64,000 bases of DNA. It comes from Arabidopsis thaliana. Its lineage: Eukaryota > Streptophyta > Magnoliopsida > Brassicales > Brassicaceae. The notes beneath the pieces were generated by a model that worked only from the letters and a program-made list of their open reading frames with translations, did not search any database and had not been told where the DNA came from. The DNA is taken from the NCBI RefSeq assembly GCF_000001735.4, contig NC_003076.8, positions 23,811,835 through 23,875,834 on the forward strand, read 5' to 3'. Below are positions 5,162-46,670 of this stretch, piece by piece. How positions within the stretch are numbered: position 1 is the first letter of the stretch; every line of letters begins with the position of its first letter. Made by a program: the position numbers and the translations under genes.

Positions 5162-5206
5162 AAGCTACACACTTTTGACCCAAAAAAAGAAAAACAAAAG
5201 CTACAC
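5162..5206. repeat. 9-bp direct repeat flanking a 27-bp A-rich insert
   Basis: AAGCTACAC occurs at 5162-5170 and again at 5198-5206. Between them is a 27-bp segment containing TTGACCC followed by an A-rich tail. The layout is that of a target-site duplication around a very short poly(A)-tailed insertion. Confidence 0.6.
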
Positions 5207-5490
5207 TGTTCCTTGATAACCAAACAAAAAATGATTTAAGAAAATTATGAAATTAGCAAAAACTTTTTATATGTTTTGTCAACAATCATGTTAATGTTTA
5301 TACATAGGACCGAAAATAAAATAAATGTATTGTTAATGTAGCTGTAACTATATGGTAACTATATTGGACCCTATTTTAGAAGGTGTATATACATTTTTAT
5401 ATTATTACTACTTTTATACAAATACAGTAAGTAGTATAATCTAGTAAACTCAAATATGAAAGGAGAATTTCAAAGAGCTTGTTGGTGAAA

Positions 5491-5573
5491 TAAACAGACT
5501 ACAGTTTTTTTTTTGTCATAAACAGACTACAGTATTTTATTTTATTTTGTCAAACAAACAGACTACAGTATTT
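5491..5573. repeat. Three copies of AAACAGACTACAGT separated by T-rich inserts
   Basis: The 14-mer AAACAGACTACAGT is at 5492-5505, 5520-5533 and 5556-5569. The first two copies share an extra 5' T. The last two share an extra ATTT on the 3' side. The two spacers are T-rich and both contain TTTTGTCA, which reads TGACAAAA on the other strand. This looks like two successive insertions at one site. Confidence 0.7.
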
Positions 5574-6933
5574 ATAATCGAAAAAATAGGTACATTGATA
5601 CTGTTAAGTTACTCAGCTTATATATGTAGATACAAAAGAAAACCATATGTAACTTCAAATTTAATAGAAAACAATTAAGAAAAAAACTACTACTGTTCTT
5701 AAGTACTGTTTAAAAATGAAAATAGCATTTCAAATTTGGGGTTCTTTTATTTGTTTTCTTTGGAACAATAATTATTAAAGAAACGGTGAGTTTCCTTCCA
5801 GCCAACATTGTTACATCCTGACACAGCCACTGACATTGACAGTGATTTTTATGTTTAGTTTCATCAATACCCTTAAACTTCTATACATTTTCATTTTGAC
5901 ACCTCATGTTTATATACTTTTCAACAAAACCCAACACTATTGATATATATGTTCACTGAATCACTGTTCAGAGTTCACACCAACCCACTTTTCAAAATCA
6001 GTTTAAGCTGACTTCATTAGGATATATTATCTTGTATAAATAATTAATATCTAAACACTCCAGGTAATGTACTAAGTGTAGAATGAAACTTTATAGAAGC
6101 AAATCTAATTTGTAGAAACAAAGTACTTTGTTTTTTCACGGTATGAGTAAAGTACTAAAAAATTTAGTTGTTAGGAAAAATAAAATCTAACTTATTAAAG
6201 AAATCAAGAAAAGTACTAAAATAAACGCTTTTTCGTCCTATTAATGTTATAACTTAAGCAACGTGGGTACACTTCATTAGTTCATTTTCACTAAATCTAT
6301 AACTTCTTTTTCTTCAATTTTTGTTCTTAATTAATAATTAAAATGTTAGGAACTGTAATTAAATTGTGATAGTAAATAGATTAGCTTAAGGGACTTCAAT
6401 AAGAAATATTTTTAATTAATACAGTATGAAATACAAAAAAAAAGTACAATCGATATATATATATATATATGAAAAATTAAGTGGAAATTCAATGTAGTAG
6501 AATCATGAGTTAAGAATCCGTACCACGGGATCTAACAATGTTAAAAAGCACCCACCTTGTTTTGAAATATCTTCCAAACTTGAGGGAGACAAAAAAAAAA
6601 AAAAAACAAGTAAAAACATTTGTCTTAAAAAAAAGAAGAAAAAAAGAAGAAGAAGATAATAATAAATAAAAAAGAACAGAACAGAAGCTGCTCTTTTGTC
6701 CAAAGCTTCTTCCTTTCTCTTTCTCCAACATTTCTTCTCTGCAAGTTAAAAACTTACTAAAATAAAAAATTCAATAAACCCTTGAAGACAAAATTAGCTT
6801 TTTTGTTTTTTTTTTATTTTAATTCTTTTTTGGTTATTTTTTTTTATGATTTTGTTTTTTGTTTTCCTCGTAAAACCCATGAGTGACCCCTTTGGTTCCT
6901 CTTTGCTTTAATCTTCAAGAAAGAAAGAAAAAA

Positions 6934-8184
6934 ATGCCTTCTTTTGCTTTTGGATCTCATCACCATTTGGCGAATCCTACAGACTCGCCGCCGTACTCCG
7001 TCGAAATTAGCATCGACGGTGACTCCTCCGACTGGGATTCTTTGTCTCAGGTCGATTTAGAGTCCGGCGGTGTACCGGCGCCGGAGAAACAGCTACATTC
7101 CGGTGGTAAGAAGAGGAGAACTAGGAGGAGAAAGAGGAGGAAGAAGAAGAAGAAGAAGAAAGGTGGAAGAGATTGCAGGATCTGTCATCTTCCTTTAGAG
7201 ACTAACAAAGAAGCTGAAGATGAAGATGAAGAAGAAGAAGATGATTCTGATGATGATGAAGATGAAGAAGATGAAGAAGAAGAAGAAGAAGAAGAAGAAG
7301 AAGAATATTATGGTTTGCCTTTGCAATTAGGTTGCTCTTGTAAAGGTGATTTGGGTGTTGCTCATAGTAAGTGTGCTGAGACTTGGTTTAAGATCAAAGG
7401 AAACATGTAAGTTTCTCTTCAAGACTACTTTTGTTTTTTTTCTGCAAAATTCTACAGATTCTGTGAGAACCAAAGTAGTAAAGAATGAAACTTTATAAGG
7501 AAAAAATGTATTTCCTTTTTATGTACTTTGAGTCTTTTTTCTTGTCTGAATTCTAGAGATCCATATCATTACTTCTTAGAAAGATTGTCTGCTGAAGCTG
7601 GAATCTACAGTTTTTGTTTTGTGGCCATCAATTGTTGTCTACTTGTGTCTCATGTTCTTATGTTCCTGCACATTTTTGGATATTTATTGTTTGTAGTCTC
7701 AATTAAAGCCAGTTTCTGTGATTTGCCTCAAAACATTCAGTTTCAAAGGCTTGATTTTGCAGCTGCATTGAGAGAATCTTGCAGTCCCTTTTGCTGAGAA
7801 AGTTTGATTTTTACCAATCAAGATTGTACTCATAGCTCTGTTTAGCTTCTGTTTCTGTGTCTTTGCATTTTCCTAGCTTCTTATATGTTTACAAGATGAA
7901 GCAAGTCCCCTAAGATTTTTACTGACTAGCATTTATCATATTGTTGTATGAATCTGAGCAGGACATGTGAGATATGCGGCGCAATGGCTCTAAACGTGGC
8001 TGGTGAACAATCTAATCCGGAGAGCACTGCTTCTACACATTCACAAGCAGCTGCGGGACAATCTCTAACTCAGACAGAGCCACGAGGAATCTGGCATGGT
8101 CGCCCTGTTATGAACTTCTTACTTGCTGCTATGGTCTTCGCCTTCGTTGTTTCTTGGCTTTTTCACTTCAAAGTCCTCAAGTGA
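6934..8184 (+). CDS. RING-variant (C4HC3) zinc finger protein with C-terminal membrane anchor
   Basis: Two exons (6934-7406, 7962-8184) total 696 nt, giving 231 aa. I chose the ATG at 6934 because the upstream in-frame ATG at 6883 adds only 17 unremarkable residues. After a Ser/Asp-rich N-terminus and a Lys/Arg-rich block (residues 59-76) comes a RING-CH type finger: Cys81/Cys84 (CRIC), Cys134/Cys136, His144/Cys147 and Cys160/Cys163 (CEIC). The last pair is supplied by exon 2. The first and second cysteine pairs are separated by an unusual run of about 40 residues, mostly Glu and Asp. A single hydrophobic segment (about 208-226) sits close to the C-terminus. Proteins with this finger are usually E3 ubiquitin ligases acting at membranes. 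The substrate is unknown. I recall this as At5g59000. Confidence 0.85.
7213..7306 (+). repeat. GAA/GAT trinucleotide repeat coding for an acidic tract
   Basis: A nearly uninterrupted series of GAA, GAT and GAC codons encodes the Glu/Asp run inside the zinc finger. A second AAG repeat (about 7139-7160) encodes the preceding Lys block. Both are prone to length change by slippage. Confidence 0.85.
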
Positions 8185-8743
8185 AACGTTTTCCATCTCT
8201 CTCTCTCTCTCTCTCTCTCTTTCGCCCACCCGCACGAGCTCACTCTTCTCCTGTTCTTGAGCCGCTTGCAATCGCTGAATCAATCCCTCCTGTTGCTTGA
8301 TTATTCACACGTTTTGTAGCTGTAAAAACTTGGTAGTGTTTAGATTGTTGTAACTTGTGAGATTTACATTTTGTATAATATTGTTCTCTGCTCCGGCTTC
8401 GTGAAATCTCTGTGTGGTCAGGAGGGTCTTAGCTCTTTTGGTTTCAGACACATGGCTTTGAAAACTGGTAATAGATAAAATACTGGACAATAGTTGTGTA
8501 GAATCTGTTTTTGTACTTCAAATGAAGAAAATTAGTTTGAACAAATCTCATATAAGGATCTTGGACTTAAATGAGAAAGATCCTTCTTTTCTTGATTCAA
8601 ATGTGATTTGAATCATCTCTTCAAATTGGAAACCACAAATTTAAGATAATGCTTAAAGAAGACAGAGACAATGAGGCTTTCTCAGAATCCAATCACAAAA
8701 CGAAGAAGGCGGAAGAGAGAAGAAACCTATACACTTGAAGTTT
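8185..8743. other. Convergent 3' region with a (TC)n microsatellite
   Basis: The 3' ends of the RING-variant gene (+) and the BSK5 gene (-) face each other here. A pure (TC)n run of roughly 14 units lies at 8194-8222, ten bases after the stop codon, so it is in the 3' UTR. No further gene is visible. Confidence 0.7.
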
Positions 8744-45455: not shown

Positions 45456-45735
45456 GAGAACAGAAGAAGTTAAGCTTCTTTAAATCGGATTCCTTTTAGT
45501 TTTGAAATAGCTTCCTTTAATTTCTTTAATGGAAAAAAGTAATGTGCCAAAATAAATATACTATTGTATTGTTTAAACTTTATATCTGTAATTATATTTA
45601 TTTTTTATGAAAAGAGAACAGAAGAAGTTAAGCTTCTTTAAATCGGATTCCCTTTTAGATTTGAGATAGTTTCCCTTTATATATTTAATTGATAGAAAAA
45701 GTAATACACCAAAATAAATATGCTATTATATTGGT
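45456..45735. repeat. Tandem duplication of about 125 bp, period about 158 bp
   Basis: Both units begin GAGAACAGAAGAAGTTAAGC (45456 and 45614), continue CTTCTTTAAATCGGATTCC, and share AGTAAT, CACCAAAATAAATAT-like and CTATT-TATTG blocks. The second unit is closer to copy A of the spacer duplication at its 3' end. Confidence 0.75.
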
Positions 45736-45907
45736 TAATTAATATATGACGCTTTTTATCTGTAATTAATTTTTATAGGAAAAGAAACGTTTGATCAAAA
45801 GACGAGAATATGAGGTACCTATAAATTATCCACTTGCTGAAGTGTTTACTTTTCTACATTTTTATCGTCAAGGCTCACAAAATCAGTCACTAATCTTTTC
45901 AGTAAAC

Positions 45908-45962
45908 AACATACTTGTTAGTTTTTTTTTTTTTTTTTTTTTTTTTTGTTAAGAACATACTT
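45908..45962. repeat. 9-bp direct repeat flanking a 26-T run
   Basis: AACATACTT is at 45908-45916 and 45954-45962. Between them is GTTAG, a run of 26 T and GTTAAG. Homopolymer length is unreliable in many assemblies. Confidence 0.55.
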
Positions 45963-46616
45963 TTTAGTTTTCAGGAAAAAATATCTTCAAACCTTTAACA
46001 ATAAAAATCTGATATTAATGTAATTTGTTTTAGTTTCATCTTACATGTATATTTATTTGAACATCTTAACCCAACTTAAAGCCTATATGAGTATATGACA
46101 GAACAAAACGTAAATGTCAGAAAGAAACAAAAATAGTAAGAAAGATAATAAACATGCATTGTGAAAGAACACGTGAATACACGTAGTTTACAAACTTTAC
46201 ACGTTGTTAGGAAGAGAGATTCCATTCGGGGGAATAAAACTCAAAACTACATCTCATCTTATATTATTAATTATATCAAATTGGAGGCATATCTTTCAAA
46301 AACACTTTATCAAAAAGAAAAAAATATAAACATCGTAAAGATACCAAATATAGCTAAAAAATATTTTATGCATGTGTTTACTCATCAAATCTTCGGGTAT
46401 ATATATTATGTTTATACACACAAACAAGTATTGACATTTGTTAATATAAGCATGTATAATGAGTGAGAAGTGAGAACTGTTGTCTATTTCAGATAGGAGA
46501 TACAGTCTAACTTAAATATACTTATCTTTCAAAATAGTCAAAAACTTTTTTTTTTTCTGAGCAAAGACAAAATAGTCTACACAAATCACATTTTCATGAT
46601 TTTAAATCTCATATAT

Positions 46617-46670
46617 GTGATGAGCCTAATAGTTGATCAAAAAGAAAAAAAGAAAAGTGATGAGCCTAAT
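46617..46670. repeat. 14-bp direct repeat flanking a 26-bp A-rich insert
   Basis: GTGATGAGCCTAAT is at 46617-46630 and 46657-46670, perfect copies. The insert begins AGTTGATC followed by an A/G tail. Confidence 0.8.

Follow-up and report, generated by a model that had tools for sequence, protein, structure and literature searches.

Tail-only insertions between target-site duplications in Arabidopsis thaliana: very probable products of LINE reverse transcription stopping about 7 nucleotides beyond the poly(A) tail

A 64-kb stretch of the Arabidopsis thaliana genome (C5:23811835-23875834, hereafter the window; the genome comprises 119.66 Mb) contains several short inserts which consist mainly of an A-tract and are enclosed by direct repeats. 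We call them tail-only insertions, and the bases preceding the A-tract of each insert its head. They are very probably products of target-primed reverse transcription (TPRT) by the endonuclease and reverse transcriptase of a long interspersed nuclear element (LINE) of the L1 clade, with copying stopped about 7 nucleotides (nt) into the RNA body. A sequence-only reading of the window had already proposed the TPRT geometry; the target-site duplication (TSD), the polarity of the tract, the nick-site preference and paralogous empty sites agree with that proposal, and shuffled sequences do not reproduce it. The new part is the fixed stop, about 7–8 nt into the RNA body.

Duplication, polarity and head length of the inserts

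The same reading had suggested a comparison with dinucleotide-shuffled sequence, and shuffling failed to give the observed frequency of repeats. Direct repeats of at least 11 bp around 6–45 bp numbered 18 in the window, while local dinucleotide shuffling, repeated 6 times, gave 0–4 each time; those with an A-rich insert numbered 7 against 0–1 per shuffle. A wider scan covered 264 kb, made up of the window and twenty 10-kb stretches of C1 and C2. Here 65 repeats of at least 11 bp around 6–60 bp were found, the mean of 10 shuffles being 4.8, and 11 had A-rich inserts (one is the compound of the events at 5490 and 5520), against none in the shuffles; the base rate of equally long A-rich segments was 2.9%.

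Tracts selected by the motif before the A-run were also sampled: the first 42 GACC-A10 tracts listed, all on C1; the first 60 C-A12 tracts listed, on C1 and uneven as to strand; and 20 of the first 23 TACC-A10 tracts listed on C1, the 3 omitted ones overlapping the C-A12 sample (L081, a short insert; L092, with no TSD; L096, a 93-bp LINE insert). For each tract an upstream copy of the right flank was sought over 340 bp (GACC) or 150 bp (C-A12 and TACC), and a short TSD-bounded insert was called at a score of at least 10 with an insert of at most 45 bp. Such inserts were present in 13 of the 42 GACC-A10 tracts, 10 of the 20 TACC-A10 tracts and 6 of the 60 C-A12 tracts (5 without the tandem repeat L118), compared with 0.31, 0.10 and 0.0, respectively, when the right flanks were permuted. 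The sampled tracts without such a TSD may be older or unrelated.

From 46 sites, 6 were dropped by eye (L118, the window sites 35550 and 24447, L012 near 228, L013 near 2717 and L014 near 9522). The 40 curated sites kept comprise 13 GACC, 10 TACC and 5 C-A12 sites and 12 from the unselected 264 kb, and include four doubtful ones (L013 8175, whose paralogue speaks against TPRT, L012 3856, L020 1292 and 14524 of the window). Their TSDs vary in length from 11 to 20 bp and hold 15 mismatches in 625 bp, a figure to be read with the bias of detection towards young sites in mind. The TSD starts with T|AA in 19 of the 40 sites, against 12.6% under a null of random nicks in the same left flanks, slid through the A's so as to allow for ambiguity between tail and TSD (p 7e-8), and with AA in 28 of the 40 against 26%. 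The curated sites thus display an endonuclease site preference resembling TT|AAAA, as do L1-clade LINE insertions, the L1 endonuclease being reported to prefer TT/AAAA (PMC2912911).

The heads were narrowly distributed in length: 0 nt in 2 sites, 1 in 1, 3 in 3, 4 in 1, 5 in 1, 6 in 4, 7 in 16, 8 in 7, 9 in 3, 13 in 1 and 16 in 1. Of the 40 heads, 16 measure exactly 7 nt and 30 measure 6–9 nt; in the 17 sites chosen without a four-letter head motif, the proportion at 6–9 nt was 12 of 17. Interquartile ranges were 6–8 nt for heads and 9–15 for tails, with standard deviations of 2.9 and 4.9. Head and tail lengths were uncorrelated (rho 0.14, p 0.40), with the caveat that a minimum tail was imposed on the selected tracts by design.

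For A-runs arising by slippage or as filler, the bases before and after the run are expected to be mirror-equal. Genome-wide, GACC-A10 occurs 283 times and its backward reading 48 times; the figures are 433 and 168 for TACC-A10, and 6572 and 4488 for C-A12, the last asymmetry perhaps reflecting in part splice acceptors (poly-T before GCAG). Among 355 unselected A-tracts, a repeat of at least 10 bp within the upstream 60 was found 12 times in the TPRT orientation, 6 times in the mirror orientation and 0.2 times with permuted flanks. The poly(A) stands at the 3' end of the insert, adjoining the 3' TSD copy in a single orientation, a polarity that is weak for KAC-A11.

The joined flanks of 41 sites (25 + 16) were then compared with the genome, which gives access to paralogues within it. 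Paralogues lacking the insert and one repeat copy were found for 3 of the 41 sites. The clear-cut case is L050 (TTTTGACC-A8), whose paralogues L123 and L124 have a single repeat copy and no A-tract; the insert and one copy are also absent from L183 when compared with L166 (CCCTACC-A) and from one part of L126 when compared with L059 (GATGACC-A). The remaining queried sites of the 41 gave no usable empty paralogue. The window segments 37496-37626 and about 45870-46010 are paralogous, non-coding and diverged (73% identity), and the former was rejected as an empty site for 45908 on account of this divergence. The gene of L025 is paralogous to window 851-1360 and offered no usable site. Copies of the L182 flank were rejected as well: the majority break off only a few bases from where the TSD begins, and none of the others continues past it. 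The left flank of L182 (L182 1-133, L009 8065-8197) is repetitive, matching the genome at more than 20 places, and the insertion sits at the edge of this repeat.

A-tracts slip readily, and expansion of a tract by replication slippage beside direct repeats present by chance would be another way to this structure. It is a highly improbable one: permuted flanks give almost no repeats, the empty paralogues L123 and L124 lack both the A-tract and the second repeat copy, and slippage leaves the one-sided heads unexplained.

Recurrent heads and their source RNA

Two heads recur throughout the genome. CCTACC-A8 was counted 93 times against 6 mirrored, and TTTGACC-A8 104 times against 8; both were counted after they had recurred in the sample, and an asymmetry stronger than that of TACC or GACC alone was expected beforehand. 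TTTGACC was present at 7 of 13 TSD sites and at 3 of 26 sites scoring below 9 (p 0.008), in a test which omits 3 sites whose score was intermediate or whose insert was long; in L027, one of the seven, the TTT falls within the TSD. Among the sampled sites, which include those that suggested the heads, 5 of 5 with CCTACC and 7 of 10 with TTTGACC were TSD-bounded. CCTACC-A8 is distributed over the chromosomes according to their length (27, 13, 16, 13 and 24; p 0.80). CCTACC and TTTGACC are in effect dispersed families of some 90–100 loci, whose common part is only 6–9 nt plus the tail; the window insert at 14235 has a head of the CCTACC family.

LINE copies were searched for with PF13966 (zf-RVT); 150 of 534 candidates were scored, and the region downstream of 55 copies was examined. 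Visual inspection of the A-tracts there gave a credible 3' end for 42 of the 55 (none was trusted in the other 13), and the window LINE, L096 and L009 brought the set to 45. Several heads are exactly equal to LINE 3' ends: GACGACC (L142), TTTTACC and TTTACC (L096), and GTTTGAC, the head of the window insert at 5520 and the final 7 nt of L188. CTTTAGC and TTGATGAC match over 6 nt. In addition, the C-A12 site L096 is an evident LINE end resembling the window LINE, with an 83-nt body between 21-bp repeats. Such cases are what ordinary extreme 5' truncation would give, in which the polymerase falls off at random and tail-only sites are merely the shortest survivors. The sequence-only reading had suggested this origin, and the equality of some heads with LINE ends bears it out in part. 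However, the heads peak at 7 nt and do not tail off, and as a group they show no significant excess of LINE-end matches over control tracts: at least 6 bases matching a LINE end were found in 6 of 35 heads (of at least 6 nt) compared with 6 of 88 TSD-less tracts (p 0.08; 44 ends, that is 45 minus L009, with at least one true LINE copy, L091, among the controls). The L142-type and L096-type ends have at least two genome matches each, the query included. In the motif-selected sets the insert lengths are also not continuous with longer truncated copies. At a score of at least 11, thirteen GACC inserts measure 10–28 bp and a fourteenth 81 bp, its repeat being TA-rich and matching only loosely; C-A12 inserts measure 17–41 bp (41 at the tandem-repeat site L118) with one of 93 bp (L096), and TACC inserts 14–31 bp. 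The motif-selected sets thus run from 10 to 31 bp and then jump to 41, 81 and 93, only two inserts exceeding 41 bp. Altogether, we consider random fall-off rather unlikely as the origin of the tail-only sites.

A different source may be thought of, namely a single short polyadenylated RNA or a small number of them (or the ends of short interspersed nuclear elements or of messenger RNAs) used in trans, so that the head length would be the RNA remaining above the tail. The recurrence of heads at about 90–100 loci each and the lack of a matching end among the 45 LINE ends speak for it, but head sequences are too varied for one RNA, though similar in length, and we regard this source as a tentative possibility. 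Two candidates were set aside. As sources of ACC heads, tRNA 3' ends (discriminator + CCA) were compared informally, only TGATACC looking like one. Random messenger RNA 3' ends, judged informally, are disfavoured because, of the 12 curated sites contributed by the unselected scan, 9 have a C before the tail. Many of the LINE 3' ends from L128 to L202 share ATGATATTTAC- or ATAATTTAACATT-like blocks upstream of the final 7–10 nt, which differ between copies, and these blocks are perhaps poly(A) signals or binding sites. Inspection of the LINE 3' ends by eye, without folding, revealed no common hairpin roadblock at 7–9 nt. The participation of the LINE machinery is well supported, and that of LINE RNA as template only partly.

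Several observations weigh against the reading as LINE-driven TPRT with a fixed stop. None of the 45 LINE 3' ends finishes in CCTACC or TTTGACC, and just 4 of the 45 end in CC. KAC-A11 is nearly symmetric (1559 and 1423), and the mirror-image search of the 355 unselected tracts also yields repeats, as given above, although 4 of the 6 mirror matches are forward loci again, because such short inserts pass in either direction. Among the empty sites that of L050 alone is clear, the target compared with L166 and the paralogue of L059 being diverged, and a further L059 paralogue, L125, is less clean, with a run of seven A's at the target. At L013 8147 an A-run lies in repeats, and the paralogue near L013 9142 already has GACAAGAAAC, so that the duplication there reused local sequence, as in a plain tandem duplication. 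The relative spread of heads and tails is similar (coefficients of variation 0.43 and 0.39), owing to the few heads of 0–3, 13 and 16 nt. Finally, an unselected search over 400 bp gave 15 matches of at least 10 bp, including three with inserts of 95, 123 and 168 bp; about 1.4 of the 15 are expected by chance, and the three long ones are close to this expectation, so longer inserts may exist.

Insertions of the window and the class with filler

Twelve tail-only events, with perfect repeats throughout, had been named in the window by the sequence-only reading. Event-by-event inspection, which took as canonical an A-tract abutting the 3' copy of a 10–18 bp duplication, retained nine of them (Table 1). 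The event at 5162 is probable, and those at 24447 and 35550 are of another type. The canonical repeats are not all perfect, 14358 and 45908 having one mismatch after the repeat is extended. The complexity filter of the window repeat scan removed 44390.

Table 1. Tail-only insertions and related features of the window (TSD, target-site duplication).
Position	Strand	Assignment	Duplication	Insert
5162..5206	+	Probable tail-only insertion	TSD of only 9 bp	ACTTTTGACCC + A-rich tail
5490..5533	-	Tail-only insertion, canonical	TSD 5490-5505, 5518-5533 (16 bp)	GAC + A9
5520..5573	-	Second insert at the same target as 5490, canonical	TSD 5520-5537, 5556-5573 (18 bp)	Head GTTTGAC + A4TA4TA
14235..14288	+	Tail-only insertion, canonical	TSD 14235-14252, 14271-14288 (18 bp, perfect)	14253-14270: head TCCTACC + A10 + G
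14358..14411	-	Tail-only insertion, canonical	TSD 14358-14374, 14395-14411 (17 bp, 1 mismatch)	14375-14394: head GTCTTACC + A12 (minus strand)
14524..14562	-	Canonical	14 bp, perfect repeats	A-tract AATA8, without usable head
21398..21456	+	Tail-only insertion, canonical	TSD 14 bp	21412-21442: GGTTTAC + A-rich tail
24447..24490	no strand	Other type, not counted	12-bp direct repeat	With A8; CAC between A-run and repeat, so the A-run does not abut
32438..32937	-	5'-truncated ordinary LINE fragment	TSD ACGGCGTCTATTTTT at 32438 and 32923	Ends CACC + A-rich tail
35550..35600	no strand	Filler class, not counted	12-bp direct repeat	Filler with A6 in its middle
44390..44435	+	Tail-only insertion, canonical	TSD AAAAAGTAAG, low complexity	TGCCGTC + A-rich tail
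45908..45971	-	Tail-only insertion, canonical	TSD 18 bp, 1 mismatch	CTTAAC + A22
46617..46670	+	Tail-only insertion, canonical	TSD 14 bp, perfect	AGTTGATC + A-rich tail

Between 5490 and 5573 one target sequence (AAACAGACTACAGT core) is present three times, separated by two different tail inserts; either two insertions took place at one nick site or the first insertion was duplicated. Three A-tail inserts lie within 330 bp (14235-14562) and three more within 5162-5573, and both clusters are possible local hot spots. Curated sites of the unselected scan amount to 7 in the 64 kb of the window and 4 in 200 kb elsewhere (p 0.006), to 7 and 5 if the doubtful L013 site is counted (p 0.012) and to 8 and 4 in another tally, an enrichment to be read with the caveat that the window was chosen because a reader noticed the feature. 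The LINE fragment lies directly behind a tRNA-Asp(GTC) gene (32371-32445). Its 15-bp duplication, noticed in the sequence-only reading, is genuine; from 32438 it comprises the last 8 bases of the tRNA gene and the T-run behind them, so the gene is intact.

Most of the excess direct repeats contain filler that is not A-rich, some of them being coding repeats, so two classes coexist and the list of twelve mixes them slightly (24447 and 35550). The filler class comprises 27 direct repeats of at least 12 bp with an insert that is not A-rich, outside long open reading frames, in the 264 kb; 5520 is among these 27, yet it is counted as a tail insert. In the window, 12-19 bp direct repeats around 11-26 bp of non-A-rich filler at 12228, 23838, 34013 and 56555 belong to this separate, break-repair-like class. 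T|AA was found at 7 of the 54 filler boundaries against a trinucleotide background of 2.5%, and TPRT may thus have produced some of the fillers too.

Vaughn and Bennetzen reportedly described in 2014 small tandem duplications with filler arising from double-strand-break repair. Repair of a staggered break would proceed by fill-in at offset nicks and joining, giving a tandem duplication with filler that slippage may make A-rich, and the sequence-only reading had offered it as the alternative for all its events. The likeness lies in the short direct repeats around a short insert. The existence of the 27 fillers and the case of L013 favour this origin, and small tandem duplications are, according to one source, the commonest short insertions in humans, with human and plant work indicating break repair (PMC8355091). 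Fillers need no polarity, recurrent head or tail-side T|AA, and break-repair duplications are expected without polarity, recurrent heads or tail, whereas the A-tail class has the polarity, the heads and the T|AA, and here the two form separate classes. Break repair is thus disfavoured for the A-tail class, where we hold it to be improbable, and stands for 35550 and the other fillers.

Proposed mechanism and its meaning

For the tail-only insertions we infer the LINE protein as agent, together with the reason for the stop. The LINE enzyme would nick a T|AA-like site, the nicked target would prime on the poly(A) tail of the RNA, and the enzyme would stop after copying the tail together with some 7 nt of the body; nicking of the second strand and filling would then generate the duplication of 11–20 bp. 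A stop set by the distance from the start of the cDNA should make heads shorter as tails lengthen; no such relation is seen, and we therefore take the stop as measured from the junction of tail and body, and heads clustering at 6–8 nt whatever the tail length favour a fixed event at this junction. Two models fit. The reverse transcriptase may abort as soon as it no longer grips the poly(rA):dT duplex, or it may be copying an RNA stub that was cleaved some 8 nt above its tail. Behind its active site, human L1 ORF2p is described as touching the copied side of the template as far as n+8 (PMC10830420); this length fits the heads and the abort model, in a cross-kingdom comparison of our own. The same source considers host cleavage of L1 RNA or intermediates a likelier cause of 5' truncation than poor processivity (PMC10830420).

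It is conceivable, though we put it forward with considerable reserve, that each tail-only insertion is the frozen remnant of an aborted round of LINE reverse transcription, and that a checkpoint 7–8 nt past the junction, at the handover from the poly(rA):dT duplex to a mixed-sequence duplex after leaving the tail, ends many attempts. If so, the genome would record hundreds to thousands of failed LINE attempts, perhaps more of them than of copies that succeeded, and the failed attempts would be a seed of spacer A-tracts. For tails of at least 10, extrapolation gives about 90 GACC sites (283 x 13/42) and about 220 TACC sites (433 x 10/20). The unselected scan outside the window, which yielded 4 sites (two doubtful) in 200 kb, would give about 2,400 genome-wide with a very wide error. 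Our claim is limited to hundreds, possibly a few thousand.

Tail-only insertions share with 5'-truncated insertions of L1-clade LINEs the variable TSD of 11–20 bp and the A tail beside the 3' TSD copy, and differ from them in having a head of about 7 nt and not a few hundred bases or more. A-rich microsatellites can be seeded by retrotransposon tails, and the tracts reported here would likewise be A-tracts of retroposition origin. New LINE insertions are said to be often just a few hundred bp long (PMC10830420). Mammalian tailless retropseudogenes are comparable, being likewise irregular products attributed to the L1 reverse transcriptase; they keep the body and lose the tail, whereas tail-only insertions keep the tail and lose the body (PMC3747384). 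An exact-word search of open-access titles and abstract openings returned no plant report of insertions consisting of a tail or of poly(A) alone among the matches listed.

No element remains beside a tail-only tract, and similarity-based annotation therefore cannot see it. A survey of the A. thaliana mobilome is described as taking copy number from annotated transposable elements longer than 300 bp and as using split reads that contain element extremities (PMC4917339). If the phenomenon is general, LINE activity in this compact plant genome would commonly end in an insertion invisible to pipelines based on element sequence. It would explain a share of the A-tracts of spacers and provide a count of LINE endonuclease attacks, and early termination of LINE reverse transcription would become testable from sequence, the head reading out the stop position directly.

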